DNA of 64,000 nucleotides from contig JAVIAB010000049.1 of NCBI GenBank assembly GCA_032433765.1, forward strand, positions 20,815,779 through 20,879,778. The letters are read 5' to 3'. Within the stretch, counting starts at the first letter, position 1. The number at the start of each line of letters is the position of its first letter. Below the pieces are notes generated by a model that saw only the letters and a program-made list of their open reading frames with translations, ran no database searches and had not been told where the DNA came from. Shown piece after piece: positions 3,622 through 58,417 of the stretch. Made by a program: the position numbers and the translations under genes. This DNA comes from Megaustenia siamemsis (lineage: Eukaryota > Mollusca > Gastropoda > Stylommatophora > Ariophantidae).

Positions 3622-3815
3622 AGCCGCGATAGCTCAGTGGTTAGTGAACTGGACTACAAAGGACAAGAGGTAGGGTTCGATCCCAACCGAGTGCTTCCGT
3701 ATTCACCCAGCATAGGTACCGAATTTTTTTCTGGGAAAGTAAAGCGGCACAGGCGTAATACCGACCACATTACCCCAAAAATCATGTGTCGAAAGTCTGT
3801 AAAATGTATGGTCTT
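3622..3815 (+). mobile_element. S1 SINE, head and body (3' part displaced to 4873)
   Basis: tRNA-like head with box A TAGCTCAGTGG and box B GGTTCGATCCC, an AGCCG/CGGCT acceptor-like pairing, then the S1 body (CCGAATTTTTTTCTGGGAAAGTAAAGCGGCAC). Homology breaks at ATGGTC (3810-3815) and resumes at ATGGTCACTAACACC near 4870. The copy seems to be split by the LINE D block between. Confidence 0.85.
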
Positions 3816-4490
3816 CTTCTTTCTTTTCTCTTTCTCACTGATACCTAAAAGGTGTCGTGGTTTATATCATTTGTTGTTCTTGAGCTGCTCGAATTGTCTG
3901 AATTAGTGATTTTCCTTTGTTGTTACATGTCTCTGTCACTGCATCTATCCATCTTCTTCTTTTCTCTTTCTCACTGATACCTAAAAGGTGTCGTGGTTAT
4001 ATCATTTGTTGTTCTTGAGCTGCTCGAATTGTCTGAATTAGTGATTTTCCTTTGTTGTTACATGTCTCTGTCACTGCATCTATCCATCTTCTTCTTTTCT
4101 CTTTCACTGATACCTAAAAGGTGTCGTGGTTATATCATTTGTTGTTCTTGAGCTGCTCGAACTGTCTGAATTAGTGATTTTCCTTTGTTGTTACATGTCT
4201 CTATCACTGCATCTATCCATCTTCTTCTTTTCTCTTTCACTGATACCTAAAAGGTGTCGTGGTTATATCATTTGTTGTTCTTGAGCTGCTCGAACTGTCT
4301 GAATTAGTGATTTTCCTTTGTTGTTACATGTCTCTGTCACTGCATCTATCCATCTTCTTCTTTTCTCTTTTCACTGATACCTAAAAGGTGTCGTGGTTAT
4401 ATCATTTGTCGTTCTTGAGCTGCTCGAACTGTCTGAATTAGTGATTTTCCTGTGTTGTTACATGTCTCTGTCACTGCATCTATCCATCTT
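3816..4490 (-). repeat. 133-135-bp tandem repeat of the LINE D 3' end (about 5 units)
   Basis: The phrase ATCTTCTTCT recurs at 3951, 4086, 4219 and 4352 (spacing 135, 133, 133). On the minus strand each unit contains the LINE D C-terminus (RWIDAVTETCNN...AAQERQMI-stop) plus its 3' UTR (ACCACGACACCTTTTAGG...GTGAGAAAGAGAAAAG). The restart point lies in the codons for RRRW (AGAAGAAGATGG), which share AGAAGAAGA with the LINE's own 3' tail. Confidence 0.92.
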
Positions 4491-4737
4491 CTTCTGGGTC
4501 TTCCTCTTGGTCTTTTTCCATGCATTCTCGAGAAGAACACCCTTGATGGTGATTGGTAAGGGTTCATTCTGACCAGGTGGCCCAACCATTTAAGTTGTTG
4601 TTGTTCTATATATTCTTGGCAGAGTTTTGTTCCTACTAATTTTGTTATGGTTTCTTTTGGTATTCTATCTCTTCTTTTGTTGTTTGTTACTTTTCTCAAG
4701 CATCGCATCTCACATGTATTGATCTTTCTTAAATGTT
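4397..4737 (-). pseudogene. LINE D C-terminal coding fragment
   Basis: A 103-codon open frame (4708-4397) reads MRCLRKVTNNKRRDRIPKET, QQLKWLGHLVRMNP, HGKRPRGRPRRRWIDAVTET and ends AAQERQMI. This is the basic C-terminal region of an animal endonuclease-RT LINE. No RT catalytic motif is present, so it is a 5'-truncated copy. It is the best-preserved LINE D reading frame here. Relatives: 27238-27513, 32790-33130, 47533-47738. Confidence 0.85.
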
Positions 4738-9661: not shown

Positions 9662-9961
9662 TCAGCTGTCTGTTTTAAGTGATTCGATTGCCCCATATAG
9701 TTTCTCTTCCAGGGAGGTGGGTGTGGACCACATTGCTCTTCTCAGGTCTGTGTACTGGGGGCAATCCTGTAGACCATGTTTTGTAGTCATATTGTCCAGT
9801 GTACAGTGGCATAGGCTGGTTGTACCTATTTTAAATTTGGTGAACATGTGGTTTCTAATTTTATTGTGGCCAGTGCTTAGGTGAAGTATAATGACTTGAT
9901 CCCTCTTTGATAGTTGGTGGTATCCGCCCCTCTCGTTATGCTTGGGTGTTCTCGTTTCCAT
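9662..9961 (-). pseudogene. LINE G C-terminal Cys/His tail
   Basis: Open frame with HLSTGHNKIRNHMFTKFKIG, SLCHCTLDNMTTKHGLQDCP and STPTSLEEKLYGAIESLKT. The C-x-C...H...C pattern and the LE.KLYG..E.L end match the C-terminal knuckle of I/Nimb LINEs. It is out of frame with the RNase H segment. Confidence 0.8.
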
Positions 9962-10425
9962 TTTTGGTACTGACCTTTGAGGATGGATTTGGCTTCACCA
10001 TAACTGAGTGGATGGTTCTCTTGTGGTAATCTCCCTTCCTCTTTAGCTAATTTGTCTGCGCGTTCATTCTCGTGTATATTACAGTGTGATGGTATCCACT
10101 GAATGACCACTCTCTGGAAGTTATTGCATAGTTTATCCAGGGTTGTTCTCAAGTCATCTAGTTCATTGTTCTAGGGGCTTTTTAGAGTTTATAATACTGA
10201 TAGTGCATCAGTCAGAATCACCAATTTATTGTGCATGTTATTTTGTGTTGAGTAGACAGGATTGCAACATCTCTGAGGGCCTCAGTTTCTGCTTTAAAGT
10301 TGTTTGAGAATTTTCCAGTAGCTATTGACTTGGTGATCTCGTCCTGGTTATTCAGCGTCAAGAACACACCTCCCCCTCCATTTCTGGTAGCATTTGTAGC
10401 AGAGCCATCTGTGTATATGTGGGAC
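9960..10425 (-). pseudogene. LINE G RNase H domain
   Basis: Across frames, all four acidic positions expected of RNase H can be read: D in HIYTDGSATNATRNGGG (about 10415), E in NFKAETEALRDVA, D in LVILTDALSVL, and D in the NERADKLAKEEG block following QWIPSHCNIH (frame open at 10152-9877). The domain would remove RNA from the cDNA hybrid. Frameshifts and stops near 10270 and 10190 make it non-functional as it stands. Confidence 0.83.
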
Positions 10426-10478
10426 CAAGAGTCCTGTGGGTAGGTATCGTGTATGTGTTTTTCTGCTATGTGTTTTCT

Positions 10479-11267
10479 TTATGTGTCTGATTGTGTGCCT
10501 TTCTTCATGATCCCTGTTATATTTTCCTTAAGTTCTGGTATTTTATGTTTTCCATGAGGAGACATATCAGATACGCCCAAGGGTTTCAATATTGTTTGGG
10601 AAAGTACTGGGTCTCCAGTAGTTAGTTCATTGGCGATTGCAGCGAAGTTGCTCCTCTTTAATCGTACAATTCCGGAACGAGTTATTCTTTGGTGCATGGG
10701 GTGGCAAAGGAGCCTTCTATATTTCTCCGCTTGTTGCAAAACTTTAGTGACCCGTCTGTCATCTAAGGGTTGTAAGCCTGTTACTGTTTCTAGAGTCTTG
10801 ATAGATGTAGATTTCATAGCACCAGCGATGATACGGGCAGCTTGGTTCTGTGTTCTGTTAATTTTGCTAAGGTGTGATTTGGAAGCCATAGCCCAGGCTG
10901 TGACTCCATACTCTAGAACTGGTCTGACTCTTCCTACGTATAGTCTTTTCAAAATATTGCTGTCTGCTCCCCAGTCCGTTCCTGCCAATTTCTTCATAAT
11001 ATTAGTTCGTTTTCTGGCTTTTTTTCTTGCTCTGTCTATCTGATTTTTCCAAGTCATTCTGCTATTCATGGTGACGCCAAGGTATGTTGGGTTTTGGTCA
11101 ATAGAGAGTGTATGGTCTTTCATCTTCAAGTTTGCAGAGAGTATGTTTCTTGATAGGCTGAAAATTATATATGAAGTTTTTTTTTCGTTAATTGGTAAGA
11201 ACCAGGTGTTCGTCCATTTTTCAAGTTCACCTAGGGCATCTTGCATACTGGAACCAGTCACTGACAC
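10479..11267 (-). CDS. LINE G RT thumb/connection part (pseudogene frame)
   Basis: A 262-codon frame follows the out-of-frame YADD motif. Recognisable parts are LEKWTNTWFLPINEKKT, the YLGVTMNSRMTW segment (shared by nearly all LINEs after motif C), KRLYVGRVRPVLEYGVTAW, and NQAARIIAGAMKSTSI with ETVTGLQPLDDRR. The start Met is internal to the domain, so this is not a separate gene but the second half of the broken RT. The stop at 10479 truncates the protein before RNase H. Confidence 0.86.
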   Translation of the reverse strand: MSVTGSSMQDALGELEKWTNTWFLPINEKKTSYIIFSLSRNILSANLKMKDHTLSIDQNPTYLGVTMNSRMTWKNQIDRARKKARKRTNIMKKLAGTDWGADSNILKRLYVGRVRPVLEYGVTAWAMASKSHLSKINRTQNQAARIIAGAMKSTSIKTLETVTGLQPLDDRRVTKVLQQAEKYRRLLCHPMHQRITRSGIVRLKRSNFAAIANELTTGDPVLSQTILKPLGVSDMSPHGKHKIPELKENITGIMKKGTQSDT

Positions 11268-11295
11268 ACTTTCCTCGCGAGCCCATAACGCCAGA

Positions 11296-12020
11296 TCATC
11301 TGCGTATATTACTGAGTGTATGGGGGGGGGGGGGATGGTCCATTGCTATGTCATTTATTAAAATTAAAAAGAGTGTTGGGGACAAGACTCCGCCTTGTGG
11401 GACACCTTGCTCGATAGAGACCTTCTTACTTAGTTGACCTTGAACTTGTACTCTGGCCGTTCTATCCTGAAGGTATTGAGAGACCCAATTGAATAAACGA
11501 CCCTGGATGCCAAGTCTAAAAAGCTTGTTCTTTAAACCCTCACGCCAAACCCTATCAAAAGCCTTCTCCATGTCGACCCACACTGCCAGTGTGTGTTTCT
11601 TTTCTTGTAGAGCATCCTCTATTTCCTGTGCATTGTAGGTGACCAGGTCTTCAGTTGATCTGTGCTGACGGAAGCCACTTTGTTGTGGTACGATTTGTTG
11701 TTTTGTCTCCAAATGCCACATAAGTCTTCTGTTAACCAGCCTTTCCATGAGTTTACTCAGGCAGCTCAGTAGGCTAATTGGTCTGTAGCTACTTGGGTCT
11801 AGTGGGTCTTTTCCACGCTTGAGGATGGGCACCATAATAGCTTCTTTCCAGATTGCCGGCACATGACCTCTCTTCCAGCTAGCATTTATTATCCTTAGAA
11901 GCTGGCTTTTGGCTTTCTGTCCCAGATTTAGGAGCATTTCGTTGGTGATTCCATCTTTACCAGGGGAACTTTTGAGCTTCAATCCTTTGAGGGCAACATC
12001 TAATTCAGTTGATTATTCTA
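11296..12020 (-). CDS. LINE G reverse transcriptase, N-terminal/palm part (pseudogene frame)
   Basis: A 228-codon frame is open from 11982. Upstream homology (ELDVALKGLKLKSSPGKDGI) goes to about 12020 past a stop. Visible RT blocks are KSSPGKDGITNEML, PILKRGKDPLDPSSYRPISL, SGFRQHRSTEDLV, the motif A aspartate in WVDMEKAFDRVW, and motif B GVPQGGVLSPTLF. Motif C YADDLALW is encoded at about 11307-11285 but in another frame, because the 13-G tract at 11322-11334 breaks the frame after NDIAMDHPPPP. RT copies LINE RNA at a nicked target. A homopolymer length error in the assembly could also explain this frameshift. Confidence 0.88.
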
Positions 12021-13845: not shown

Positions 13846-14515
13846 GTTGCATTCACCACAGCCAGTGTGAAAGAACCTCTATCTCTAGCCAGACCTCCCA
13901 CAGAACGTTGCATTCACTACAGCCCGTCTGAAAGAATCTCTGTCTCAAGCCAGATCCCCCTCAGATGGTTGCGTGCACCACAGCCCGTCTGAAAGAATCT
14001 CTATCTCTAGCCAGATCTCCTACAGAACGTTGCATTCACTACAGCCCGTCTGAAAGAATCTCTGTCTCAAGCCAGATCCCCCTCAGATGGTTGCGTGCAC
14101 CACAGCCTGTCTGAAAGAATCTCTATCTCTAGCCAGACCTCCCACAGAATGTTGCTCTCACCACAGCTCGTCTGACAGAATCTCTGTCTCTAGCCAGACC
14201 TCCCACAGAATGTTGCTCTCACCACAGCCCGTCTGAAAGAATCCCTGACTCTAACCATTCCTCCCACAGAATGTTGCTCTCACCACAGCCCGTCTGAAAG
14301 AATCCCTGACTCTAACCATTCCTCCCACAGAATGTTGCTCTCACCACAGCCCGTCTGAAAGAATCCCTGACTCTAACCATTCCTCCCACAGAATGTTGCT
14401 CTCACCACAGCCCGTCTGAAAGAATCCCTGACTCTAACCATTCCTCCCACAGAATGTTGCTCTCACCACAGCCCGTCTGAAAGAATCCCTGACTCTAACC
14501 ATTCCTCCCATTTCT
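13846..14515 (-). repeat. 61-bp tandem repeat made from the LINE I 3' end (about 11 units)
   Basis: ACCACAGCCC recurs at 14221, 14282 and 14343 (61 bp), while older units to the left vary slightly in length. On the minus strand each unit encodes the LINE I end (ARDRDSFRRAV..ATFCG). The newest five units at the right, next to the LINE I body, are nearly identical. The opposite-strand counterpart is at 38575-38820. Confidence 0.92.
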
Positions 14516-18999: not shown

Positions 19000-19215
19000 T
19001 ATCAACGGGGAAAGAGATACAACAAAGACGATGCCGCTGGATAGGACACGCTGCAAAAGCCAACTGAGATTATTACAGGCAGGCCGTTTTTAGAATACCC
19101 TGGGGAAGAGACAAAGAGGAAGACCAAAATATTCTAGGAGAAGACAGGTGGAATGAGAGATGAAGATGATGGGGAAGACATGGAATGATCTTAAAAGAAT
19201 GGCAGAATGGCTTTG
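19000..19215 (+). pseudogene. LINE B 3' end
   Basis: Contains the RWIGHA..KPTE region, GRRQVE/NER region and MAEWL-like end, leading straight into a 38-bp array. Confidence 0.78.
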
Positions 19216-20350
19216 AAAGTGTTAGTTGAAGACCTTTGCTCCACACGGAGCTGAAAGTGTTTGTTGAAGACCCATGATCCACAGGGAGCTGAAAGTGTTA
19301 GTTCAAGACCTATGCTCCACAGGGAGCTGAAAGTGTTTGTTGAAGACCCAAGCTCCACAGGGAGCTGAAAGTGTTTGTTGAAGACCCATGATCCACAGGG
19401 AGCTGAAAATGTTTGTTGAAGACCTATGCTCCAAGGGAGCTGAAAGTGTTAGTTCAAGACCTTTGCTCCACACGGAGCTGAAAGTGTTTGTTGATGACCT
19501 ATGCTCCACAGGGAGCTGAAAGTGTTTGTTGAAGACCCATGCTCCACAGGGAGCTGAAAGTTTTTTGAAGACCCATGCTCCACACGGAGCTGAAAGTGTT
19601 TGTTGAAGACCCACGCTCCACAGGGAGCTGAATGTGTTTGTTGAAGACCTATGCTCCACAGGTAGCTGAAAGTGTTTGTTGAAGACCTATGCTCCACAGG
19701 AAGCTGAAAGTGTTTCTTGAAGACCTTACAGCACAGGTAGCTGAAAGTGTTTGTTGGAAACCTATGCTCCACAGGGAGCTGAAAGTGTTTGTTGAAGACC
19801 TATGCTCCACAGGGAGCTGAAAGTGTTTCTTGAAGACCTATGCTCCACAGGGAGCTGAAAGTGTTTGTTGAAGAACTATGCTCCACAGGGAACTGAAAGT
19901 GTTTGTTGAAGACCTGTACAGCACAGGTAGCTGAAAGTGTTTGTTGAAGACCTATGCTCCACAGGGAGCTGAAAGCAAAGATAAAGGTAAAGTACGAAAC
20001 ATGAACAGGCGCCCTTAGCACGCGAGTTTCCACCCATGTATGCTTGGGCGCAAATCTCAGAACTTTTCTGCATAGTGTCGCTTCAAGAATCGAAAGTCAC
20101 GCTGCGAGGCGACATTCCTCACCCTCCCAAGGTAATACCCTGGTACCCATTTCTGCCAACGGCTGGGTCGACCGTGGGGGTATTTTTTTCCCAACTACGA
20201 GTACAACTCACACTGCTCCCAGCGGGAATCGAACACGGGTTGTCCGAACGTCGGTAGTCCAGTTGGTGGTTTTCCCATCTAGGCTACCGATGCCTCCAAG
20301 CTGCTGAAAGTGTTTGTTGGAGACTTTTACTCCACAGGGAGCTGAAGGAT
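19215..20350 (+). repeat. 38-bp LINE B-derived minisatellite, second locus
   Basis: About 20 units to 19975, more divergent than at 1489 (GTTAGTTCAAG, ACACGGAGC, one unit lacking about 6 bp at 19560). Two further units lie after the S2 insertion (20303-20370). Same unit phase as at 1489. Confidence 0.93.
19976..20302 (-). mobile_element. S2, tRNA-derived SINE inserted in the 38-bp array
   Basis: On the minus strand the head reads GGCATCGGTAGCCTAGATGG (box A TAGCCTAGATGG) with box B GTGTTCGATTCCC, then a GGTACCAGGGTATTACC-containing body and an ACTTTACCTTTATCTTT tail. The array word GCTGAAAG lies at 19968-19975 and 20303-20310 as a probable TSD. Only one copy seen here. Confidence 0.83.
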
Positions 20351-22689: not shown

Positions 22690-23828
22690 CTCATCTCACC
22701 TCCGTTGTACATCTACAATCTCACCTCCGTTGTACATCTACCATCTCACCTCCGTTGTACATCTACCATCTCACCTCCGTTGTACATCTACCATCTCACC
22801 TCCGTTGTACATCTACCATCTCACCTCCGTTGTACATCTACCATCTCACCTCCGTTGTACATCTACCATCTCACCTCCGTTGTACATCTACCATCTCACC
22901 TCCGTTGTACATCTACCATCTCACCTCCGTTGTACATCTACCATCTCACCTCCGTTGTACATCTACCATCTCACCTCCGTTGTACATCTACCATCTCACC
23001 TCCGTTGTACATCTACCATCTCACCTCCGTTGTACATCTACCATCTCACCTCCGTTGTACATCTACCATCTCACCTCCGTTGTACATCTACCATCTCACC
23101 TCTGTTGTACATCTACCATCTCACCTCCGTTGTACATCTACCATCTCACCTCCGTTGTACATCTACCATCTCACCTCCGTTGTACATCTACCATCTCACC
23201 TCCGTTGTACATCTACCATCTCACCTCCGTTGTACATCTACCATCTCACCTCCGTTGTACATCTACCATCTCACCTCCGTTGTACATCTACCATCTCACC
23301 TCCGTTGTACATCTACCATCTCACCTCCGTTGTACATCTACCATCTCACCTCCGTTGTACATCTACCATCTCACCTCCGTTGTACATCTACCATCTCACC
23401 TCCGTTGTACATCTACCATCTCACCTCCGTTGTACATCTACCATCTCACCTCCGTTGTACATCTACCATCTCACCTCCGTTGTACATCTACCATCTCACC
23501 TCCGTTGTACATCTACCATCTCACCTCCGTTGTACATCTACCATCTCACCTCTGTTGTACATATACCATCTCACCTCTGTTGTACATCTACCATCTCACC
23601 TCCGTTGTACATCTACCATCTCACCTCCGTTGTACATCTACTATCTCACCTCCGTTGTAAATCTACCATCTCACCTCCGTTGTACATCTACCATCTCACC
23701 TCTGTTGTACATCTACCATCTCACCTCCGTTGTACATCTACCATCTCACCTCCGTTGTATATCTACCATCTCACCTCCGTTGTACATCTACCATCTCACC
23801 TCTGTTGTACATCTACCATCTCACCTCT
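22690..23828. repeat. 25-bp minisatellite, about 45 units
   Basis: Unit CTCACCTCCGTTGTACATCTACCAT. Because 25 is 1 modulo 3 and the unit has no stop on the plus strand, all three plus frames stay open (up to 407 codons); these are not genes. It sits between the 5' edge of LINE A (minus) and a LINE E tail (plus). The same unit recurs at 34845-35022 next to another LINE A. Confidence 0.97.
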
Positions 23829-24424: not shown

Positions 24425-24828
24425 AAAAAAGAGATTTTTTATCTGAACAAGTAGGATATTTTATCTGAACAAGTAGAACATTTTATCTGAAAAAGTAGAA
24501 TATTTTATCTGAACAAGTAGAACATTTTATCTGAAAAAGTAGAATATTTTATCTGAACAAGTAGAACATTTTATCTGAAAAAGTAGAATATTTTATCTGA
24601 ACAAGTAGAATATTTTATCTGAACAAGTAGAACAGTTTATCTGAACAAGAAGAATATTTTATCTGAACAGGTAGAATATTTTATCTGAACAAGTAGAATA
24701 TTTTATCTGAACAAGTAGAATATTTTATCTGAACAAGTAGAATATTTTATCTGAAAAAGTAGAATATTTTATCTGAACAAGTAGAATATTTTATCTGAAC
24801 AAGTAGAACATTTTATCTGAACAAGTGA
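24425..24828. repeat. 22-bp array, about 18 units
   Basis: Unit AAGTAGAATATTTTATCTGAAC with ACATTTT and AAAAGT variants. An alternating pattern at 24460-24610 suggests a 44-bp dimer. Confidence 0.95.
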
Positions 24829-24954: not shown

Positions 24955-25650
24955 ATGCCAGACCACACAAAAATTAATAGAGATAAGACCAACATTATGA
25001 GAATTAATACAGTTGGCAATAATCAAATAAAACTAGGAGAAATACCTCTATTAGACGTACAATCTTACATATATCTGGGCAATAATATAGATAAAGAGGG
25101 AGGAACAGAAAATGATACCAAAATAAGGATATCAAAAGCAAGAGGAGCTTTCATTGCACTGGGAAACATATGGAAGTTCAAAGAAATTAGGTTAAATGCA
25201 ACAAGAACAATTTTCAACTCTAATGTTATGTCAGTCCTATTATATGGCTGTGAAACATGGAGAATAACAATATTGACAATCATGAAGATACAGACTTTCA
25301 TTAATGGATGCTTTCGCAGAATAAAAGTATGGAAAAGGCAGGACAAAATCACTAACATAGAATTATGGAAATATACCAGTCAAATACCAGTGGATAAAGT
25401 TATACAACGAAGACGACGGCGCTGGATAGGACACACACTGCGGAAGCCACTGAGAGTATTACACAACAGGCCCTTTTTGAAATCCCCAGGGAAAAAGACA
25501 ACGAGGAAGAAAAATAAATTCTTGGAGAAGACAGACAGAAGCAGAGATGAAGATGATGGGGAAGACATGGAAAGATCTTAAAAGAATGGCAAGAAACAGA
25601 ACGACTTGGAAAGTGTTTGTTGAAGACCTTTGCTCCACAGGGAGCTGAAA
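24955..25650 (+). pseudogene. LINE B, best copy (thumb to C-terminus, 208-codon frame)
   Basis: The open frame 24955-25581 begins inside the RT after motif C: TKINRDKTNIMRINT, the VQSYIYLGNNIDKEGGTEND block, RISKARGAFIALG, MSVLLYGCETWR, IMKIQTFINGCFRRI, VIQRRRRRWIGHTLRKPLR and KKTTRKKNKFLEK. A frameshift then leads to FVEDLCSTGS near 25610-25645. This layout is typical of animal endonuclease-RT LINEs in which the C-terminus binds RNA/DNA through basic residues. No palm catalytic residues, so it is 5'-truncated. One unit of the 38-bp end is present, unexpanded. Confidence 0.87.
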
Positions 25651-26794: not shown

Positions 26795-27022
26795 AATGGC
26801 GTATAGGGAATACGGTGTTAGTAACCATAAATTGTACAGACCTTCAGCACATGATTTTTGTGGTAATGTGGTCGATATTACACCCGTGCCGCCTTACTTT
26901 CCCAGAAAAAAAATCCGGTACCCATTAAAGGCTGGGTGAACCCGAAAGCCGTCGATTGGGATCGAACCCTACCCCTTGTCCTTTGTAGTCCAGTATTTAA
27001 CCACTGAGCTATCGCAGCTCCC
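26795..27022 (-). mobile_element. S1 SINE, 3'-truncated
   Basis: Contains the body and a tRNA-like head on the minus strand (boxes A and B complete at about 26955-27015). The 3' tail and final inverted sequence are missing: homology starts at ATGGCGTATAGGG with no TTTAC tail. Confidence 0.82.
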
Positions 27023-27119
27023 TCCGATGACCTGTACTCATTTACTAGTTAGCCGTCATCTATTTCTGGAATGCCAATATCTACTAATGGTATTTCAAAT
27101 CAAGTATGTTGTTTGATAT

Positions 27120-27969: not shown

Positions 27970-27971
27970 TA

Positions 27972-28705
27972 GGGAGCTGCGATAGCTACAGTGTTTAGTG
28001 AACTGGACTACAAGGGACAAGAGGTAGGGTTCGATCCCAACCGACGACTTCCGGTTCACCCAGCCTTAAATGGGTACTGGATTTTTTCCTGGGAAAGTAA
28101 AGCGGCATGGGCGTAATACCGATCACATTACACCCCCCCCCCCAAATTAAAAAAAAAATCGTGTGCTGAAGGTCTGTAAAAATATGGTCACTAACACCAT
28201 ATTCCCTGTACGCCACTTAGCGTGACGGGTCACTAACACCATATTCCCTGTACGCCACTTGGTGTGACGGGTCACTAACACCATATTCCCTGTACGCCAC
28301 TTGGCGTGACGGGTCACTAACACCATATTTCCTGTACGCCACTTGGCGTGACGGGTCACTAACACCATATTCCCTGTACGCCACTTGGTGTGACGGGGTC
28401 ACTAACACCATATTCCCTGTACGCCTATTGGCGTGACGGGTCACTAACACCATATTTCCTGTACGCCTCTTGGCGTGACGGGTCACTAACACCATATTCC
28501 CTGTACGCCACTTGGCGTGACGGGTCACTAACACCATATTCCCTGTACGCCACTTGGCGTGACGGGTCACTAACACCATATTCCCTGTACGCCACTTGGC
28601 GTGACGGGTCACTAACACCATATTCCCTGTACGCCACTTGGCGTGACGGGTCACTAACACCATATTCCCTGTACGCCACTTGGCGTGACGGGGCTTTACT
28701 TTACT
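27972..28705 (+). mobile_element. S1 SINE with 3' end expanded into a 42-bp array
   Basis: Box A-like GATAGCT.CAGTG and box B GGTTCGATCCC at about 27977-28040, an S1 body with a C-run at about 28132-28143, then the array, then GGGGCTTTACTTTACTTATTTT as tail. The tail after the array shows the array is internal to the SINE. Confidence 0.88.
28187..28690 (+). repeat. 42-bp minisatellite from the S1 3' end (12 units)
   Basis: Unit GGTCACTAACACCATATTCC + CTGTACGCCACTTGGCGTGACG. Each unit ends in ACGCCA-CT-TGGCGT, a 6-bp inverted repeat. Unit 42 bp, occasionally 43. All three frames on both strands give Tyr/Ser-rich artefact proteins. Confidence 0.96.
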
Positions 28706-29340: not shown

Positions 29341-29357
29341 AACAATGACTCAATGAG

Positions 29358-29960
29358 GAAGAGGTATGTTTACAGCACTCGGGGAAAATGACAACTAATC
29401 AACAACATAAAAAAAAGAACACTATATGGTCCTAAGAAGAATAAATCGGAAATTTCCCTTTGTAATAATATTAATTTATTATTATTTGTCTCCAGTCTAA
29501 GCCTCTGGAAACTACTATTTGTGCTGTTTCATCCTAAATGTTTGCATGCAACGCAAGTATTCAGCCCTACACTATCCGGGAAATACTTGTCTTAATAGGA
29601 AACATAATATACACAATTTATTCTCGAGATGTGATAGCACCCCTATCCTATGGTCATGACAACACCGGCGTGACAGACATCGCCAATGATGGCTATTTTT
29701 TTAGGTAGCCGAGTTGGCAGTGTTCCCTAACGTTTTGCTTTTCGTAGCAAGGCGCAGTGCCAAGGAGTACGGGTTCGATTCTGCTGAGGACCATATATTG
29801 TTCTTTGTCTTTTTTCTGTTGTTGATTATTTCTAATTTTTCCCGAGTGATGTTAACATACCTCTTCCTCTGAATTAATTCGCTGATTATCGCCTTGGAAT
29901 TTTCCCTCTATAATCATATTCATTTATTATTATTTGTCTCCTGCCTTGATATGACGTGAT
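29358..29960 (+). mobile_element. S3 element, copy 1, with inverted 5' segment
   Basis: The left arm 29358-29437 (GAAGAGGTATG...TATATGGTCC) is the reverse complement of 29786-29873. Between them lie an ATTATTATTTGTCTCC boundary repeat (also at 29930), a 250-bp internal region and a tRNA-like head at 29704-29790 (box A TAGCCGAGTTGG, box B GGTTCGATTC, a long variable arm as in Leu/Ser tRNAs). Same architecture as 36507-37349 and 50782-51172. Confidence 0.7.
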
Positions 29961-32789: not shown

Positions 32790-33130
32790 CGAAATCACAT
32801 TTAAGAAAGATATGTGAGATGCGATGCTTGAAAAAAGTAACAAACAACACAAGAAGAGATAGAATACCAAATGAAACCATAAGAAAAATGGTAGGAATAA
32901 AACCCTGACAAGAATATATAGAACTACAACAACTTAAATGTTTGGGCCACCTGGTCAGAATGAATTCTCACAAATCACTATCAAGGGCGTTCTTCTAAAA
33001 AATGCATGGAAAAAGACCCAATGGAAGACCCAGAAGAAGACGGATAGATACAGTGATAGAGACATGTAACAACAAAGGGAAATCACTAATTCAGACAGTT
33101 CGAGCAGCTCAAGAACGACAAATGATATAA
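32790..33130 (+). pseudogene. LINE D C-terminal region
   Basis: Translated remnants: MRCLKKVTNNTRRDRIPNET, KMVGIKP-stop, EYIELQQLKCLGHLVRMNS, and RRRRIDTVIETCNN to AAQERQMI. Leads into a tandem array of its own 3' end. Confidence 0.82.
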
Positions 33131-33716
33131 ACCACGACACCTTTTAGGTATCAGTGAGAAAGAGAAAAGTAGAAGATGGATAGATGCAGTGACAGAGACA
33201 TGTAACAACAAAGGAAAATCACTAATTCAGACAGTTCGAGCAGCTCAAGTACTACAAATGATATAAACCACGACACCTTTTAGGTATCAGTGAGAAAGAG
33301 AAAAGAAGAAGATGGATAGATGCAGTGACAGAGACATGTAACAACAAAGGAAAATCACTAATTCAGACAGTTCGAGCAGCTCAAGTACTACAAATGATAT
33401 AAACCACGACACCTTTTAGGTATCAGTGAGAAAGAGAAAAGAAGAAGATGGATAGATGCAGTGACAGAGACATGTAACAACAAAGGAAAATCACTAATTC
33501 AGACAGTTCGAGCAGCTCAAGAACGACAAATGATATAAACCACGACACCTTTTAGGTTATCAGTGAGAAAGAGAAAAGAAGAAGATGGATAGATGCAGTG
33601 ACAGAGACATGTAACAACAAAGGAAAATCACTAATTCAGACAGTTCGAGCAGCTCAAGAACGACAAATGATATAAACCACGACACCTTTTAGGTATCAGT
33701 GAGAACGAGAAAAGAA
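33030..33716 (+). repeat. About 134-bp tandem repeat of the LINE D 3' end (about 5 units)
   Basis: AGAAGATGGATAGATGCAGTGACAGAG... to CACCTTTTAGGTATCAGTGAGAAAGAGAAA recurs head-to-tail, with AGTACTACAAATG and AGAACGACAAATG variants marking pairs of units. Same breakpoints as 3816-4490 and 47640-48184. Confidence 0.92.
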
Positions 33717-33854
33717 AGAAGAAAGATATAAACATGTAGATTGATGCACAAAAGCATGACAAATTTTGCCTCTGAAATAACTTCCATTCCATTGATGAAA
33801 ACCTTCAGTACTGAAAAAAAAGTTAAAGAATATTCAAAACATAATGAAATATAA

Positions 33855-34770: not shown

Positions 34771-34844
34771 TAAAAAATGGAATGTACAGTATCTTCCTCA
34801 TTTTTTTTTTGTGAAAGCTGCTTTTGCTTGAGCCATTCTGCATC

Positions 34845-35022
34845 TCACCCTTGTTATACATCTGTCATCTCACATCTGTTGTACATCTATCAACTCACCT
34901 CCGTTATAAATCTACCACCTCACCTCTGTTGTACATCTACCACCTCACCTCTGTTGTACATCTACCATCTCACCTCTGTTGCACATCTACCACCTCACCT
35001 CTGTTGTACATCTACCACCATA
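34845..35022. repeat. 25-bp minisatellite, second locus (about 7 units)
   Basis: CTCACCTCTGTTGTACATCTACCAC units, the same family as 22690-23828 and again beside LINE A on the same strand. Confidence 0.92.
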
Positions 35023-36157: not shown

Positions 36158-36506
36158 ATTCACCTTTTATTTATGGGATGCCAATTCCACATGATCATAT
36201 TATTGTAAGCAATTATTTACATTTTCTCCGATCCTAAATGATAGCAAGATATCCCAGCTTTTCTAGTAAAACAAAACCAAACAAAATCCAAACGTTTCGA
36301 TCACAAGAACGTCAAATAAATTAGAAGAAAACAAAACAAAATATAAATTATAAGTCGGAAGAAATATTTTAAAATATCATAAAAAGTTTCAACAACATCA
36401 CTCTGGAAGTGCGTACACAAGTACGGGTGACCAACGAAGGCCTGTTTACACTCGCGACCACTAAAAGGCCATTGGCCCTTTAAAGTAGAAAAGCGTAGCC
36501 TAAAAT
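36158..36506. other. Spacer, no gene seen
   Basis: No clear repeat; probably includes the continuation of the unassigned LINE at 35626. Confidence 0.35.
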
Positions 36507-37349
36507 CGGTGACAAATAAAAATAAATGAAATTATTATACAGGGAAACTTCCGATGCGATAATTCAGGGAATCATACGAGGAAGAGGTATGTACTACAGC
36601 ACTCAGAAAAAATGACAAATAAACAACAACAGAAAAAAAAAACAAAGAACAATATATGGTTCGATGCAGGATCGAACCCGTACTCCACGGCACTGCGCCT
36701 TGCCACGAGGAGCCGAACGCTAGGGAACACTGCCACTCAGCTAATTAAAAAATTAGCTATAGTGGACGATGTATTTCACGCAGGTGTTCTCATGACTATA
36801 GCATAAGGTTACGATCACAGCTCGGGAATAAATTGTATTTCTGTACTTTCCTATTAAGGCAAGTATCTCCCAGTAGGGCTGAATACTTGTGTTGCAGACA
36901 AACATTTATTGGACGATACTACACGAATAGTAGTTTCCAGTGGTTTTCATACTGGAGAAAAAATAATAATAAATAAATATTATTATAGAGGTAAACTTCC
37001 GAGGCGATAATTCAGGGAATCATAGGAGAAAGAGGTATGTATTACAGTATTCAGAAAAAATGACAAATAAACAGAAATACAATTTATTTCCGAGCTGTGA
37101 TCGTAACCCTATGCTATAGTCATGAGAACACCTGAGTGAAAGACATTGTCCACTATTGCTAATTTTTTGGTTAGCTCTGTGGCAGAGTTCCCTAGCGGTC
37201 GGCTTCTCGTGGCAAGCGCGCAGTGCCAGGGAATACGGGTTCAATCCTGCTTCGGATCATATATTGTTCTTTGTTTTTTTTCTGTTGTTGTTTAAATGTC
37301 ATTTTTTTTTTGAGCGCTGTAATACATCCCTCTTCTTCCTATGACTCCC
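36507..37349 (-). mobile_element. S3 element, copy 2, full unit plus inverted 5' segment
   Basis: On the minus strand: 3' tail (AATAATTTCATTTATTTTTA, 36507-36540), then body, a tRNA-like head (box B at about 36668-36680) and internal region to about 37070. There the strand switches, and 37071-37349 repeats the same sequence in plus orientation. Arms of about 270 bp (36575-36840 vs 37080-37345) face each other. TAGCCTAAAATC at 36495-36506 and TAGTCTAAAATC at 37350-37361 may be a TSD (1 mismatch). Confidence 0.78.
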
Positions 37350-37765
37350 TAGTCTAAAATCTACAGTCTGAATACAAATGTTGAGCAAATCGACCTACCA
37401 GCGCCGTGTCTGGACGAAAGACGCAGACATTGCTAGTTTTCTATTGCGTAAACTAGCGACACAGCGCCCAAACGACTACTTAACGAACGAAAGCTAAGTC
37501 GAAAAACCAGAAAAAGCAACCAGCTGTCTCAGCAAAGAAAGATAATAAATCATTGAACGTATCGAGAAGGAGAGATTGTAAATAGTTCTGGGCTAAGTAA
37601 GCAATAACGCCATTCTAATGATGAGAAACATGTTTAAACTGATGTCGATAACATCTAGTCTTCCCTGGCCTCAAACCAAATCCTATATCGGGGTATCTGG
37701 CGGTAATAAAGAGCCATAATAGCTTTTGCTAATGCAAATGTGGGGAGACTCATTTTGTGCATAGA
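37350..37765. other. Spacer, no gene seen
   Basis: Mixed composition without a recognisable frame. Confidence 0.4.
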
Positions 37766-38439: not shown

Positions 38440-38820
38440 AATTAAAATGTTATGGCCACGTAAGATGACACAGCGGCCTGGAAAAACCGATAATGGAAAG
38501 TTTGGTTCCTGAGGTGCAGACCAAGAAGAAGATGGCTTCAAGATATGAAGACCTTGAACATGACAACAGAAGAAGTGGGAGATCTGGCTAGAGACAGCGA
38601 TTCTTTCAATGCGCTGTGGTGAATGCAACGTTCTGTGGGAGATCTGGCTAGAGACAGAGATTCTTTCAGACAGGCTGTGGTGAATGCAACGTTCTGTGGG
38701 AGATCTGGCTAGAGACATAGATTCTTTCAGACGGGCTGTGGTAAATGCAACTTTCTGTGAGTGATCTGTTTAGAGACAAAGATTCTTTCCTGCGGGATGT
38801 GGTAAATGCAACGTTCTGGA
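38440..38820 (+). pseudogene. LINE I 3' end with about 4 tandem 61-bp terminal repeats
   Basis: KCYGHVR-stop, then a LEKPIMESLVPE-like part, KKKMASRYEDLE, and VGDLARDSDSFNALW. The last 61 bp (GGGAGATCTGGCTAGAGACA...GCAACGTTCTGT) then repeat three more times with drift. Same unit as 13846-14515 on the other strand. Microhomology TGGGAG(ATCTGG) joins the end to the restart point. Confidence 0.85.
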
Positions 38821-47532: not shown

Positions 47533-47738
47533 GTACAACAACTTAAATGGTTGGGCCACCTGGTCAGAATGAATCCTCACCAATCACCATCAAGGACGTT
47601 CATCTCGAGAATGCATGGAAAAAGACCAAGAGGAAGACCTAGAAGAAGATGGATAGATGCAGTGATAGAGACATGTAACAACAAAGGAAAATCACTAATT
47701 CAGACAGTTCGAGCAGCTCAAGAACGACAAATGATATA
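47533..47738 (+). pseudogene. LINE D C-terminal fragment
   Basis: QQLKWLGHLVRMNPHQSPSR, HGKRPRGRPRRRWIDAVIET, CNNKGKSLIQTVRAAQERQM then I-stop, all in one frame. 5'-truncated at the QQLKW codons. Confidence 0.87.
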
Positions 47739-48184
47739 AACCACGACACCTTTTAGGTATCAGTGAGAAAGAGAAAAGAAGAAGATGGATAGATGCAGTG
47801 ATAGAGACATGTAACAACAAAGGAAAATCACTAATTCAGACAGTTCGAGCAGCTCAAGCGCGACAATTGATATAAACCACGACACCTTTTAGGTATCAGT
47901 GAGAAAGAGAAAAGAAGATGGATAGATGCAGTGATAGAGACATGTAACAACAAAGGAAAATCACTAATTCAGACAGTTCGAGCAGCTCAAGCGCGACAAT
48001 TGATATAAACCACGACACCTTTTAGGTATCAGTGAAAAGAGAAAAGAAGAAGATGGATAGATGCAGTGACAGAGACATATAACAACAAAGGAAAATCCCT
48101 AATTCAGACAGTTCGAGCAGCTCAAGAACGGCAAATGATATAAACCACGACACCTTTCAGGTATCAGTGAAAGAGAAAAGAAGA
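47640..48184 (+). repeat. 128-133-bp tandem repeat of the LINE D 3' end (about 4 units)
   Basis: Third independent expansion. Units differ by GCGCGACAATTGAT vs GAACGACAAATGAT and by small deletions in the AGAAGAAG joint (AAAAGATGGATAG in one), as expected if the joint is slippage-prone. Confidence 0.92.
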
Positions 48185-48199
48185 AGATTCTTAAATATT

Positions 48200-50310: not shown

Positions 50311-50768
50311 ACCATCTTCCTTTATCTAAACATCTATTTTATTTCCCCACTCACTCTCTTTGTACCTTCATGAAAATGTTATATTCAATGTCGTAATTAT
50401 ATTTTCTTAATTAAATTCCATTTTACCATTACTATTTCCATGATTTGTATTTCATTATTAAATTACTTTTGACTTAATGATGAATTAAAACTTTTTACCA
50501 TATTTTCTTTTCTCTTTTAATCAACTATTCATTCCTTCAATCTATTTTTTTTTTAATGCATCTATTTTTTCCTGCGTTCAGTCTAATTTGTCTTGTTTAA
50601 TTGAATCCATCCTATCTTTACATGCGGTCTACCTTTATCTTCGGGGGAGCACAAACGCCTGCGACCTGCGGTCGCAATAGCAGTGTCGGCGCACCTTCAG
50701 CCGACCAAGACCCTAGCATATCTACCTCCTCGTGGTCTCACCTGGTAACAGTCTCCGTCAAAACAGGC
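50311..50768. other. AT-rich then GC-richer spacer, no gene seen
   Basis: 50640-50768 is GC-richer but carries no recognisable frame. Confidence 0.4.
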
Positions 50769-50781
50769 TGGCTAACAGAAG

Positions 50782-51172
50782 AGGGAATAATAGAACAAAG
50801 AAGTATGTGTTAGCACTCGGAAAAATTGACAGACAAACAACAATAGAAAAAAACGAAGAACAACATATGGTCCGAAGCGGGATCGAACCCGTACTCCCTG
50901 GCACCGCGCCTTGTCACGAGAAGCCGAACGCTTGAATATAAAACCTATGCAGTTAAGCCATTACAACCCGCCACATCTGGCAAGGCGCGGTGCCAGGGAG
51001 TACAGGTTCGATCCCGCTTCGGACCATATGTCGTTCTTCGTTTTTTTCTATTGTTGTTTGTCTGTCAATTTTTCCGAGTGCTAACACATACTTCTTTGTT
51101 CTATTATTCCCTATTATCGCCTCGGAAGTTCCCTATATATAATAATATTTATTTATTATTATTTGTACCCAG
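50782..51172 (+). mobile_element. S3 element, copy 3: hairpin form with 13-bp TSD
   Basis: TGGCTAACAGAAG at 50769-50781 and 51173-51185 bound a 391-bp insertion. Left arm about 50782-50906 (AGGGAATAATAGAACAAAG.. to CGCGCCTTG) and right arm about 50983-51115 are near-perfect reverse complements. Each has a box B-like GTTCGATCCCGC motif. The right end carries the 3' tail (AATAATATTTATTTATTATT). The spacer contains AAGCCATTACAACCCGCCAC, which nearly repeats at 51333-51352 outside the element. Confidence 0.88.
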
Positions 51173-51185
51173 TGGCTAACAGAAG

Positions 51186-51401
51186 CTAGGATCGCCGTGT
51201 TCCCTGTAGTGGTGGCTGTTACTGATATAGAAGACCCAGTATTGCAGTACCTTTGGGCTGGACTAGTAGTTTCCTAGCACAGCCTGGGACAGACGAACTC
51301 CAACCTCTGCAGTAAGAGCCGGGAATGTCAAGAAAGCCATTACGACCCGCCACATCTAATCGAGTCAAAGAGCAGCAAGCTCGTATCAACTCGTGGCAAT
51401 C

Positions 51402-51444
<43 letters not shown>

Positions 51445-54725: not shown

Positions 54726-54774
54726 CTTTTTGTATACCATTTAACTGCATAGGTTTTCAACACTGTCTGTTTAT

Positions 54775-55680
54775 CCCTGTGGGGCATAGGTCTTCAACAA
54801 ACACTTTCAGCTCCCTGTGGAGCATAGGTCTTCAACAAACACTTTCAGCTCCCTGTGGAGCATAGGTCTTCAACAAACACTTTCAGCTCCCAGTGAAGAA
54901 TAGGTCTTCAACAAACACTTTCAGCTCCCTGTGGAGCATAGGTCTTCAACAAACACTTTCAGCTTCCTGTGGAGCATAGGTCTTCAACAAACACTTTCAG
55001 CTCCCTGTGGGGCATAGGTTTCAACAAACACTTTCAGCTCCCTGTGGGGCATAGGTTTCAACAAACACTTTCAGCTCCATGTGGAGCATAGGTCTTCAAC
55101 AAACACTTTCAGCTCCCTGTGGGGCATAGGTTTCAACAAACACTTTCAGCTCCCTGTGGGGCATAGGTTTCAACAAACACTTTAACTTCCCTTAGGAGCA
55201 TAGATCTTCAACAAACACTTTTACTTCCCTTAGGAGCATAGGTCTTCAACAAACACTTTTACTTCCCTTAGGAGCATAGGTCTTCAACAAACACTTTAAC
55301 TTCCCTTAGGAGCATAGATCTTCAACAAACACGTTCACTTCCCTTTGGAGCATAGGTCTTCAACAAACACTTTCACATCCCTGCGGAGCACAGGTCTTCA
55401 ACAAACACTTTCACATCCCTGCGGAGCATAGGTCTTCAACAAACACTTTCACCTCCCTGTGGAGCACAGGTCTTTAACAAACACTTTCACCTCCCTGTGG
55501 AGCACATGTCTTCAACAAACACTTTTACCTCCCTGTGGAGCATAGGTCTTCAACAACCACTTTCACCTCCCTGTGGAGCACAGGTCTTCAACAAACACTT
55601 TTACCTCGCTGTGGAGCATAGGTCTTAAACAACCACTTTCACCTCCCTGTGGAGCACAGGTCTTCAACAACCACTTTCCA
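54775..55680 (-). repeat. 38-bp LINE B-derived minisatellite, third locus (about 23 units)
   Basis: Reverse orientation: CAGCTCCCTGTGGAGCATAG + GTCTTCAACAAACACTTT. Sub-blocks are visible: TGGGGCATAGGTTTC (37 bp) at 55010-55170, CTTAGGAGCATAG at 55180-55310, and CACCTCCC at 55440-55660, showing stepwise amplification. Confidence 0.95.
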
Positions 55681-57786: not shown

Positions 57787-58417
57787 TAAAGGTAAAGTAC
57801 CCCCTATCACGCCAAGTGGCGTATAGGGAATATGGTGTTAGTGACACGTTACGCCAAGTGGCGTATAGGGAATATGGTGTTAGTGACACGTTACGCCAAG
57901 TGGCGTATAGGGAATATGGTGTTAGTGACACGTCACGCCAAGTGGCGTATAGGGAATATGGTGTTAGTGACACGTCACGCCAAGTGGCGTATAGGGAATA
58001 TGGTGTGAGTGACACGTCACGCCAAGTGGCGTATAGGGAATATTGTGTTAGTGACACGTCACTCCAAGTGGCGTATAGGGAATATGGTGTGAGTGACACG
58101 TCACGCCAAGTGGCGTATAGGGAATATGGTGTGAGTGACACGTCACGCCAAGTGGCGTATAGGGAATATGGTGTTAGTGACACGTTACGCCAAGTGGCGT
58201 ATAGGGAATATGGTGTTAGTGACCATACATTTTACAGACCTTCAGCACATTATTTTTGGGGTAATGTGGTCGGTATTACGCCCGTGCCGCTTTACTTTCT
58301 CAGAAAAAAATCCGGTACCCATTAGAGGCTGGGTGAACCGTAGCCGTCGGTTGGGATAGAATCCTACCTCTTGTCCTTTGTAGTCCAGTTCACTAACCAC
58401 TGAGCCATCGCGACTAC
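57787..58417 (-). mobile_element. S1 SINE with expanded 3' end, exact 13-bp TSD
   Basis: AACCAATGAATAC at 57774-57786 and 58418-58430. Inside: TAAAGGTAAAGTACCCCC tail, about 10 units of the 42-bp end, body, and head with AACCGA and CTGAGCCATCGCG (box A complement). The whole 631 bp is one insertion. Confidence 0.93.
57805..58218 (-). repeat. 42-bp S1-tail minisatellite, about 10 units, inside a TSD-bounded SINE
   Basis: Unit ACACGTCACGCCAAGTGGCG + TATAGGGAATATGGTGTTAGTG. Substitutions (TTACGCC, GTGAGTG) are shared between non-adjacent units. Confidence 0.96.

Follow-up and report, generated by a model that had tools for sequence, protein, structure and literature searches.

The window, that is, the whole 64-kb stretch of DNA analysed here, contains a short repeat family, S3, at three loci (A, B and C), which were found by local search and profile search and constitute the sample (n=3 loci, single window). 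The profile search of the window gave 8 significant matches, all inside these loci, and each locus is arranged head-to-head, which bears out the claim of an earlier sequence-only reading that S3 is inverted in three of three copies; two further profile rows, with E values of 8.8 and 9.5, are attributable to chance. Inverted pairs of at least 50 columns lying less than 1.5 kb apart accounted for 11 rows in the whole window, comprising four from the S3 loci, four self-palindromes in TA-repeat stretches and three other repeats with a spacing of 947-1480 bp. Because this list otherwise holds TA self-palindromes and distant repeats, the inverted design is special to S3. The inverted pair at 26797-27023 and 27971-28215 (248 columns, 80%, 947 bp apart) is not S3. 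Pattern scans of prokaryotic and viral contigs, where absence says little, gave no S3 relatives.

The complete S3 unit is ~455 bp long and occurs once in locus A and once in locus B, the two units being 80% alike. Numbered on the minus strand of locus B (position 1 at 36963 and position 457 at 36507), it opens with ~220 bp that precede the promoter boxes; the A box lies at 221, the B box ends near 295, the body extends as far as TTCCCT (398) and the tail continues to about 455. Loci A and B (2/3) hold a partial head-to-tail tandem of this unit, and locus C is one truncated unit. The larger loci had previously been described as having the same inverted design as C, which is correct for their inverted arms, but the extra size of A and B is mainly due to the additional ~455-bp head-to-tail unit. 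In both, the tail of the upstream partial unit continues directly into the next unit; the tandem sequence thus runs on past the common insert end, and the 3' end of S3 is therefore internal to the tandem unit. The units have no long reading frame, with stops in all three sense frames, and the inserts have no simple-repeat or poly(A) 3' end. A self-search limited to the window gave no match between the S3 tail and the LINEs present there, and no hammerhead ribozyme was detected by an Rfam gathering scan of the window, by scans of the three loci at E<=10 or by a motif scan.

At locus C the insert measures 391 bp (50782-51172) and is flanked by perfect 13-bp copies of TGGCTAACAGAAG, which were read directly at 50769-50781 on the left and 51173-51185 on the right, confirming the earlier description of a 391-bp insertion with an exact 13-bp target site duplication. 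When this duplication is taken minus one base, 8 of 2000 random flank pairs score equally. The insert begins with an inverted 5' arm without tail (50782-50932, minus strand; unit 398 to 243, by arm search and unit alignment), followed by a 45-nt turnaround filler foreign to the unit (50933-50977, by self-match), a forward arm in which the B box is present and the A box is missing (50978-51112, plus strand; unit about 259 to 398) and a one-sided 3' tail of 60 bp (51113-51172, plus strand) without a left counterpart. The arms are 138 nt long, 97% complementary, head-to-head and separated by 61 nt. The insert had been described as two near-perfect head-to-head copies, which holds for these arms but overlooks the asymmetry of the locus, the right 60 bp having no left partner. 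RNA of 50782-51178 folds at -266 kcal/mol, compared with a shuffle mean of -87 (z -35; 0/100 shuffles as good). A miRNA was considered at this locus and rejected, as the Rfam scores for MIR8622 (79.6 against a gathering threshold of 197) and MIR7486 (30.4 and 28.7 against 67) reflect only the long hairpin.

The filler of locus C matches 51334-51357 on the plus strand in 23 of 24 nt and 54757-54741 on the minus strand in 17 of 17, compared with a maximum of 15 exact nucleotides among 150 shuffled 46-mers, and on these matches it looks like the product of templated joining. The right flank of the locus (51186-51443), with which the filler shares the 23/24 nt, terminates with a (TAA)13 array and could represent a LINE 3' end. 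To the left of the locus, at 50716-50783, there are very weak ribozyme matches, HDV-like (13.6 bits, E 7.3) and drz-agam-1 (13.2 bits, E 9.2), which are probably due to chance.

Locus B (36508-37349) carries the element on the minus strand. Beginning at the 3' end of the element, it consists of the 58-bp tail of the complete unit (36508-36565, minus), the portion of that unit containing the A box (from 36743), the B box (to 36669) and the body to TTCCCT (36566-36743, minus), the ~220-bp region upstream of the boxes (36744-36963, minus), a partial upstream unit of body end and tail arranged head-to-tail with the complete unit (36961-37073, minus) and an inverted 5' arm without tail (37071-37349, plus; unit 398 to 120). 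Read in the direction of the element, the order is inverted 398 to 120, forward 339-450 and the complete unit, and the inverted arms align over 282 columns at 87.9% identity. Flank comparison identified an imperfect 12-bp target duplication, TAGCCTAAAATC at the 3' end of the element (36496-36507) and TAGTCTAAAATC beside the inverted arm (37350-37361), with 11/12 positions identical (1 mismatch); 14 of 2000 random flank pairs are as good. The partial unit differs by 8.3% from the complete unit (60 columns) and by 16.9% from the inverted arm (59 columns). The bases common to the partial unit and the inverted arm look ancestral, and the divergences if anything oppose derivation of the two from one shared template region.

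Locus A extends from about 29346 to 29941 and consists of an inverted 5' arm without tail (29346-29442, minus; unit about 395 to about 304, the outer 9 nt placed by eye), the tail of a partial upstream unit joined head-to-tail to the complete unit (29443-29493, plus) and the complete unit itself, with its region upstream of the boxes (29491-29705, plus), the stretch from A box to B box (29706-29781, plus), the body (29782-29883, plus) and a 3' tail of about 58 bp (29884-29941, plus). The order is thus inverted about 395 to 304, forward ~399-457 and the complete unit. Its inverted arms align over 92 columns at 84.8% identity, with alignment of the inverted arm supported to unit 386 and the outer end eroded. 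No target duplication was recognisable at this locus, where the flanks share only ATGAC and 887 of 2000 random flank pairs are as good.

Other repetitive sequence in the window includes minisatellite units of 38, ~136, 42, 25 and 61 bp, each recurring as separate arrays, some on opposite strands. These arrays lie at 1484-2060, 19214-19975 and 54774-55678 (38-bp unit); 3815-4495, 33032-33722 and 47641-48188 (~136-bp unit); 28186-28692 and 57807-58223 (42-bp unit); 22692-23827 and 34844-35019 (25-bp unit); and 13846-14510 and 38575-38818 (61-bp unit). It looks as if such recurring arrays were carried or seeded by mobile elements. A broken LINE with Pfam matches to reverse transcriptase and RNase H is present at 9880-12012 on the minus strand, and a reading frame at 24955-25581 on the plus strand, beside a 22-bp minisatellite (24437-24826), has a DUF6451 match and resembles the end of a non-LTR polymerase. 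The LINE-type frames point to an animal as the probable host.

Both complete S3 units contain the A and B boxes of a pol III promoter as a strict match, in the right order and with tRNA-like spacing. In dinucleotide shuffles of the two units the relaxed box pattern appeared in 4 and 7 of 4000 and the strict pattern in 0/4000. The boxes lie ~220 bp inside the unit in A and B, in contrast to 10-15 nt from the 5' end in tRNA-derived SINEs, and neither ARAGORN nor Rfam called a tRNA. Every arm with a B box (5/5) has a run of 6-10 T starting 26-28 nt past it. Pol III terminates at such T runs, and a pol III RNA would therefore be expected to stop ahead of the body end and the tail. In the inverted arm of locus C, the relaxed box match depends on an A-box-like stretch contributed by the filler. 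The promoter-like boxes of the head-to-head arms point outward. Given this orientation and the T runs, pol III transcripts would diverge and stop rather than pair, so that a hairpin RNA would depend on transcription entering from the flanks. The earlier suggestion that S3 gives rise to a long double-stranded RNA is thereby weakened.

The three S3 loci share an inverted 5' arm without tail followed by a forward 3' arm with tail, the one-sided tail being ~58-60 bp long in all of them, and the 3' ends of the three inserts coincide within about 2 nt. The outer ends of the inverted arms of B and C differ by no more than 1 nt in unit coordinates, a coincidence that by rough arithmetic has a chance of ~1 in 100 if ends are spread evenly over ~340 nt. 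A shared arm end had been claimed for the two larger loci; B does share its end with C, but the alignment in A falls ~12 nt short and can be extended only weakly by eye.

The turnarounds at the centres of the three loci are unlike, with unit 398 to 304 followed by 399 in A, 398 to 120 followed by 339 in B, and 398 to 243 followed by the filler and then 259 in C. Divergence between the arms of a locus is 0.9% in C, 12.1% in B and 16.5% in A, compared with at least 17.1% between loci (~100 aligned columns), and within-locus pairs receive bootstrap values of 99 (A), 100 (C) and only 49 (B) in the arm tree. Three different centres, together with arms that are nearest to their own-locus partner, favour a new inversion per insertion. 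Because a tail-less inverted partial copy at one end is also the insertion pattern of Penelope-like elements (PLEs), the S3 hairpin was probably made afresh at each insertion, as a by-product and not itself the mobile form. The sequence-only reading had suggested the opposite, but a moving hairpin should keep its centre and that suggestion is not supported. A master hairpin copied as such, whose differing centres result from later deletions, would agree with the inversion of 3/3 loci and with the arm end common to B and C. Palindromes are known to undergo deletion at their centres and conversion of one arm by the other, and such events could imitate both the differing centres and the within-locus similarity. 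This history is nevertheless quite improbable, in view of the three centres being all different, the grouping of arms by locus in 3/3 cases, the match of the C filler to other sequence near the target, and the poor quality of self-complementary RNA as a template. Snap-back or self-primed synthesis, in which one cDNA (or antisense RNA) forms a fold-back and serves as its own template, would be consistent with the 97% complementarity of the C arms and was the authors' interpretation of palindromes at Adineta PLE junctions in PMC3846280. It is an improbable explanation for S3, as it predicts a tiny-loop centre and matching arm ends where the observed starts are 304/399 in A, 120/339 in B and 243/259 with the 45-nt filler in C, and as copying would need to halt at the border of body and tail every time. 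At first sight the long inverted repeats and the target duplication suggest a foldback or MITE-type DNA transposon, and a subsequent inversion of the DNA and a fold-back artefact of the assembly were considered alongside it, but this group of explanations has a very slight probability. Foldback and MITE transposons were rejected because the two outer ends differ, the tail being present on one side only, and partial tandems are not a feature of DNA transposons; an assembly fold-back was rejected on the arm divergence of 0.9 to 16.5% and the exact or near-exact duplications flanking two inserts.

A serious, although unlikely, alternative is that S3 belongs to the conventional tRNA-derived SINEs mobilised by LINEs, with 5' inversions arising via twin priming on dimeric or paired RNAs. 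The ordered boxes with tRNA-like spacing in both complete units and the LINE fragments of the window, which include reverse transcriptase and RNase H, would agree with such an origin, as would the abutting inverted and forward parts of locus A (unit 398 / 399), which resemble classical twin priming. The frequency of inversion in L1 is, however, far below the 3/3 seen in S3. Twin priming yields a target duplication and an inverted 5' part, and repeated internal starts in one U5 RNA loop are described in PMC4476161. In B and C, however, the inverted arm overlaps the forward arm, and one RNA read once cannot yield such an overlap. The T runs in 5/5 arms with a B box should stop a pol III transcript short of the tail, the ~220 bp of the unit upstream of the boxes lies beyond the reach of a pol III RNA, the inserts stop without a simple-repeat or poly(A) end where tandem units run through, and the lack of a tRNA call by ARAGORN or Rfam likewise counts against this origin. 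The earlier designation of S3 as SINE-like holds insofar as S3 is short and carries tRNA-type promoter boxes.

The preferred reading, to which a probability of about 0.55 is assigned, takes S3 to be a non-autonomous retroelement that has a ~455-bp repeating unit and inserts in the fashion of a PLE. A PLE-type reverse transcriptase carrying an endonuclease would bind an RNA that spans one or more tandem S3 units, and the two target strands would be cut at sites offset by a few bases. One strand would prime cDNA synthesis from its 3' end within the RNA at the tail end, and the other would prime from its 3' end ~58 nt upstream, at the TTCCCT of the body end, using either the same RNA or another one. 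Both cDNAs would converge, halt at varying places and be joined via short homology or filler, giving a target duplication, a tail-less inverted arm, a turnaround, a forward and often partly tandem unit with tail, and the second target duplication. The anatomy of the loci and the duplications at two of the three are the observed basis of this scheme, and the enzyme, the two-site priming and the joining are proposed from them. The target duplications vary from 13 bp exact in C to 12 bp with 1 mismatch in B, and AT content at the target is 44% in C and 66% in B, a slight elevation, compared with 61% for the window. No PLE protein or GIY-YIG domain was detected by Pfam in 10 of the 149 reading frames of the window, although a non-autonomous derivative would lack them anyway, and the searches likewise gave no PLE-related sequence; both negatives count against the preferred reading.

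Published accounts of PLEs provide the pattern with which S3 was compared. According to PMC3846280, the Adineta PLE has two direct pLTRs with an adjacent inverted, shorter pLTR and a 9-bp duplication, its 31-bp tail is optional at one inverted pLTR, and head-to-head is the commonest form. PMC11167929 describes a purified anole PLE protein that cuts and extends both strands in vitro; reverse transcription starts inside the RNA at two neighbouring sites, one at either border of the tail, and no difference in start site is reported between top and bottom strands. A curation guide likewise counts among the traits of PLEs a second copy in tandem that is truncated at its 5' end, an inverted pLTR and a short extension at the 3' end.

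A more specific form of the Penelope-type reading, offered tentatively, is that S3 is a SINE-sized PLE parasite, possibly a tRNA-like promoter cassette inside a Penelope-type pLTR that is moved in trans, whose copies would record two fixed and different priming sites (tail end and body end) and joining by filler. No Penelope-moved pol III SINE is described among the literature matches listed. If true, this would be a third kind of parasite on PLE machinery, beside autonomous PLEs and hammerhead retrozymes. The completion of PLE insertion is not settled, the second-strand steps being left open by the 2024 in vitro paper, and a short non-coding passenger with the same scars, if abundant, would provide many independent junctions for testing two-strand priming. 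It also suggests caution, as such hairpins should not be taken for foldback transposons or for a design that makes dsRNA.

Among known systems, tRNA-derived SINEs resemble S3 in their A and B boxes, small size and target duplication, whereas S3 differs in having its boxes ~220 bp inside the unit, T runs after the B box, no simple-repeat 3' end, a partial tandem and inverted arms. LINE twin-priming inversions and U5/L1 chimaeras, as presented in PMC4476161, have the same inverted 5' part from top-strand priming inside the RNA, within a target duplication, but the inverted arms of S3 duplicate sequence of the forward arm and have an outer end common to B and C. Metazoan non-LTR retrozymes are defined by circular RNA together with type I hammerheads, and PMC7761336 describes them as lacking a promoter; PMC8969392 suggests that retrozymes could be a novel SINE type, possibly dependent on PLEs. 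S3 is alike in being a short non-coding tandem unit without protein and in its proposed use of PLE enzymes, but it differs in its pol III-like boxes and in the absence of a detected hammerhead, and a hammerhead retrozyme was rejected on the Rfam and motif scans.

The pLTRs of PLEs usually carry a hammerhead ribozyme, which was not found in S3, and S3 further differs from PLEs in its unit of only ~455 bp, the lack of a long open frame, the presence of A and B boxes, a target that is not clearly AT-rich and a tail of ~58 bp, compared with the published 30-40. The strict strand split of its start sites, with the tail on one strand only, is not predicted by the anole assay of PMC11167929. With the Penelope/Poseidon-type PLEs Adineta vaga Pen2a and Anolis PAc, S3 nevertheless shares the partial head-to-tail tandem, the truncated head-to-head inverted 5' arm, the tail on one of two opposed arms, the short target duplication and a 3' end that lies inside the tandem unit.
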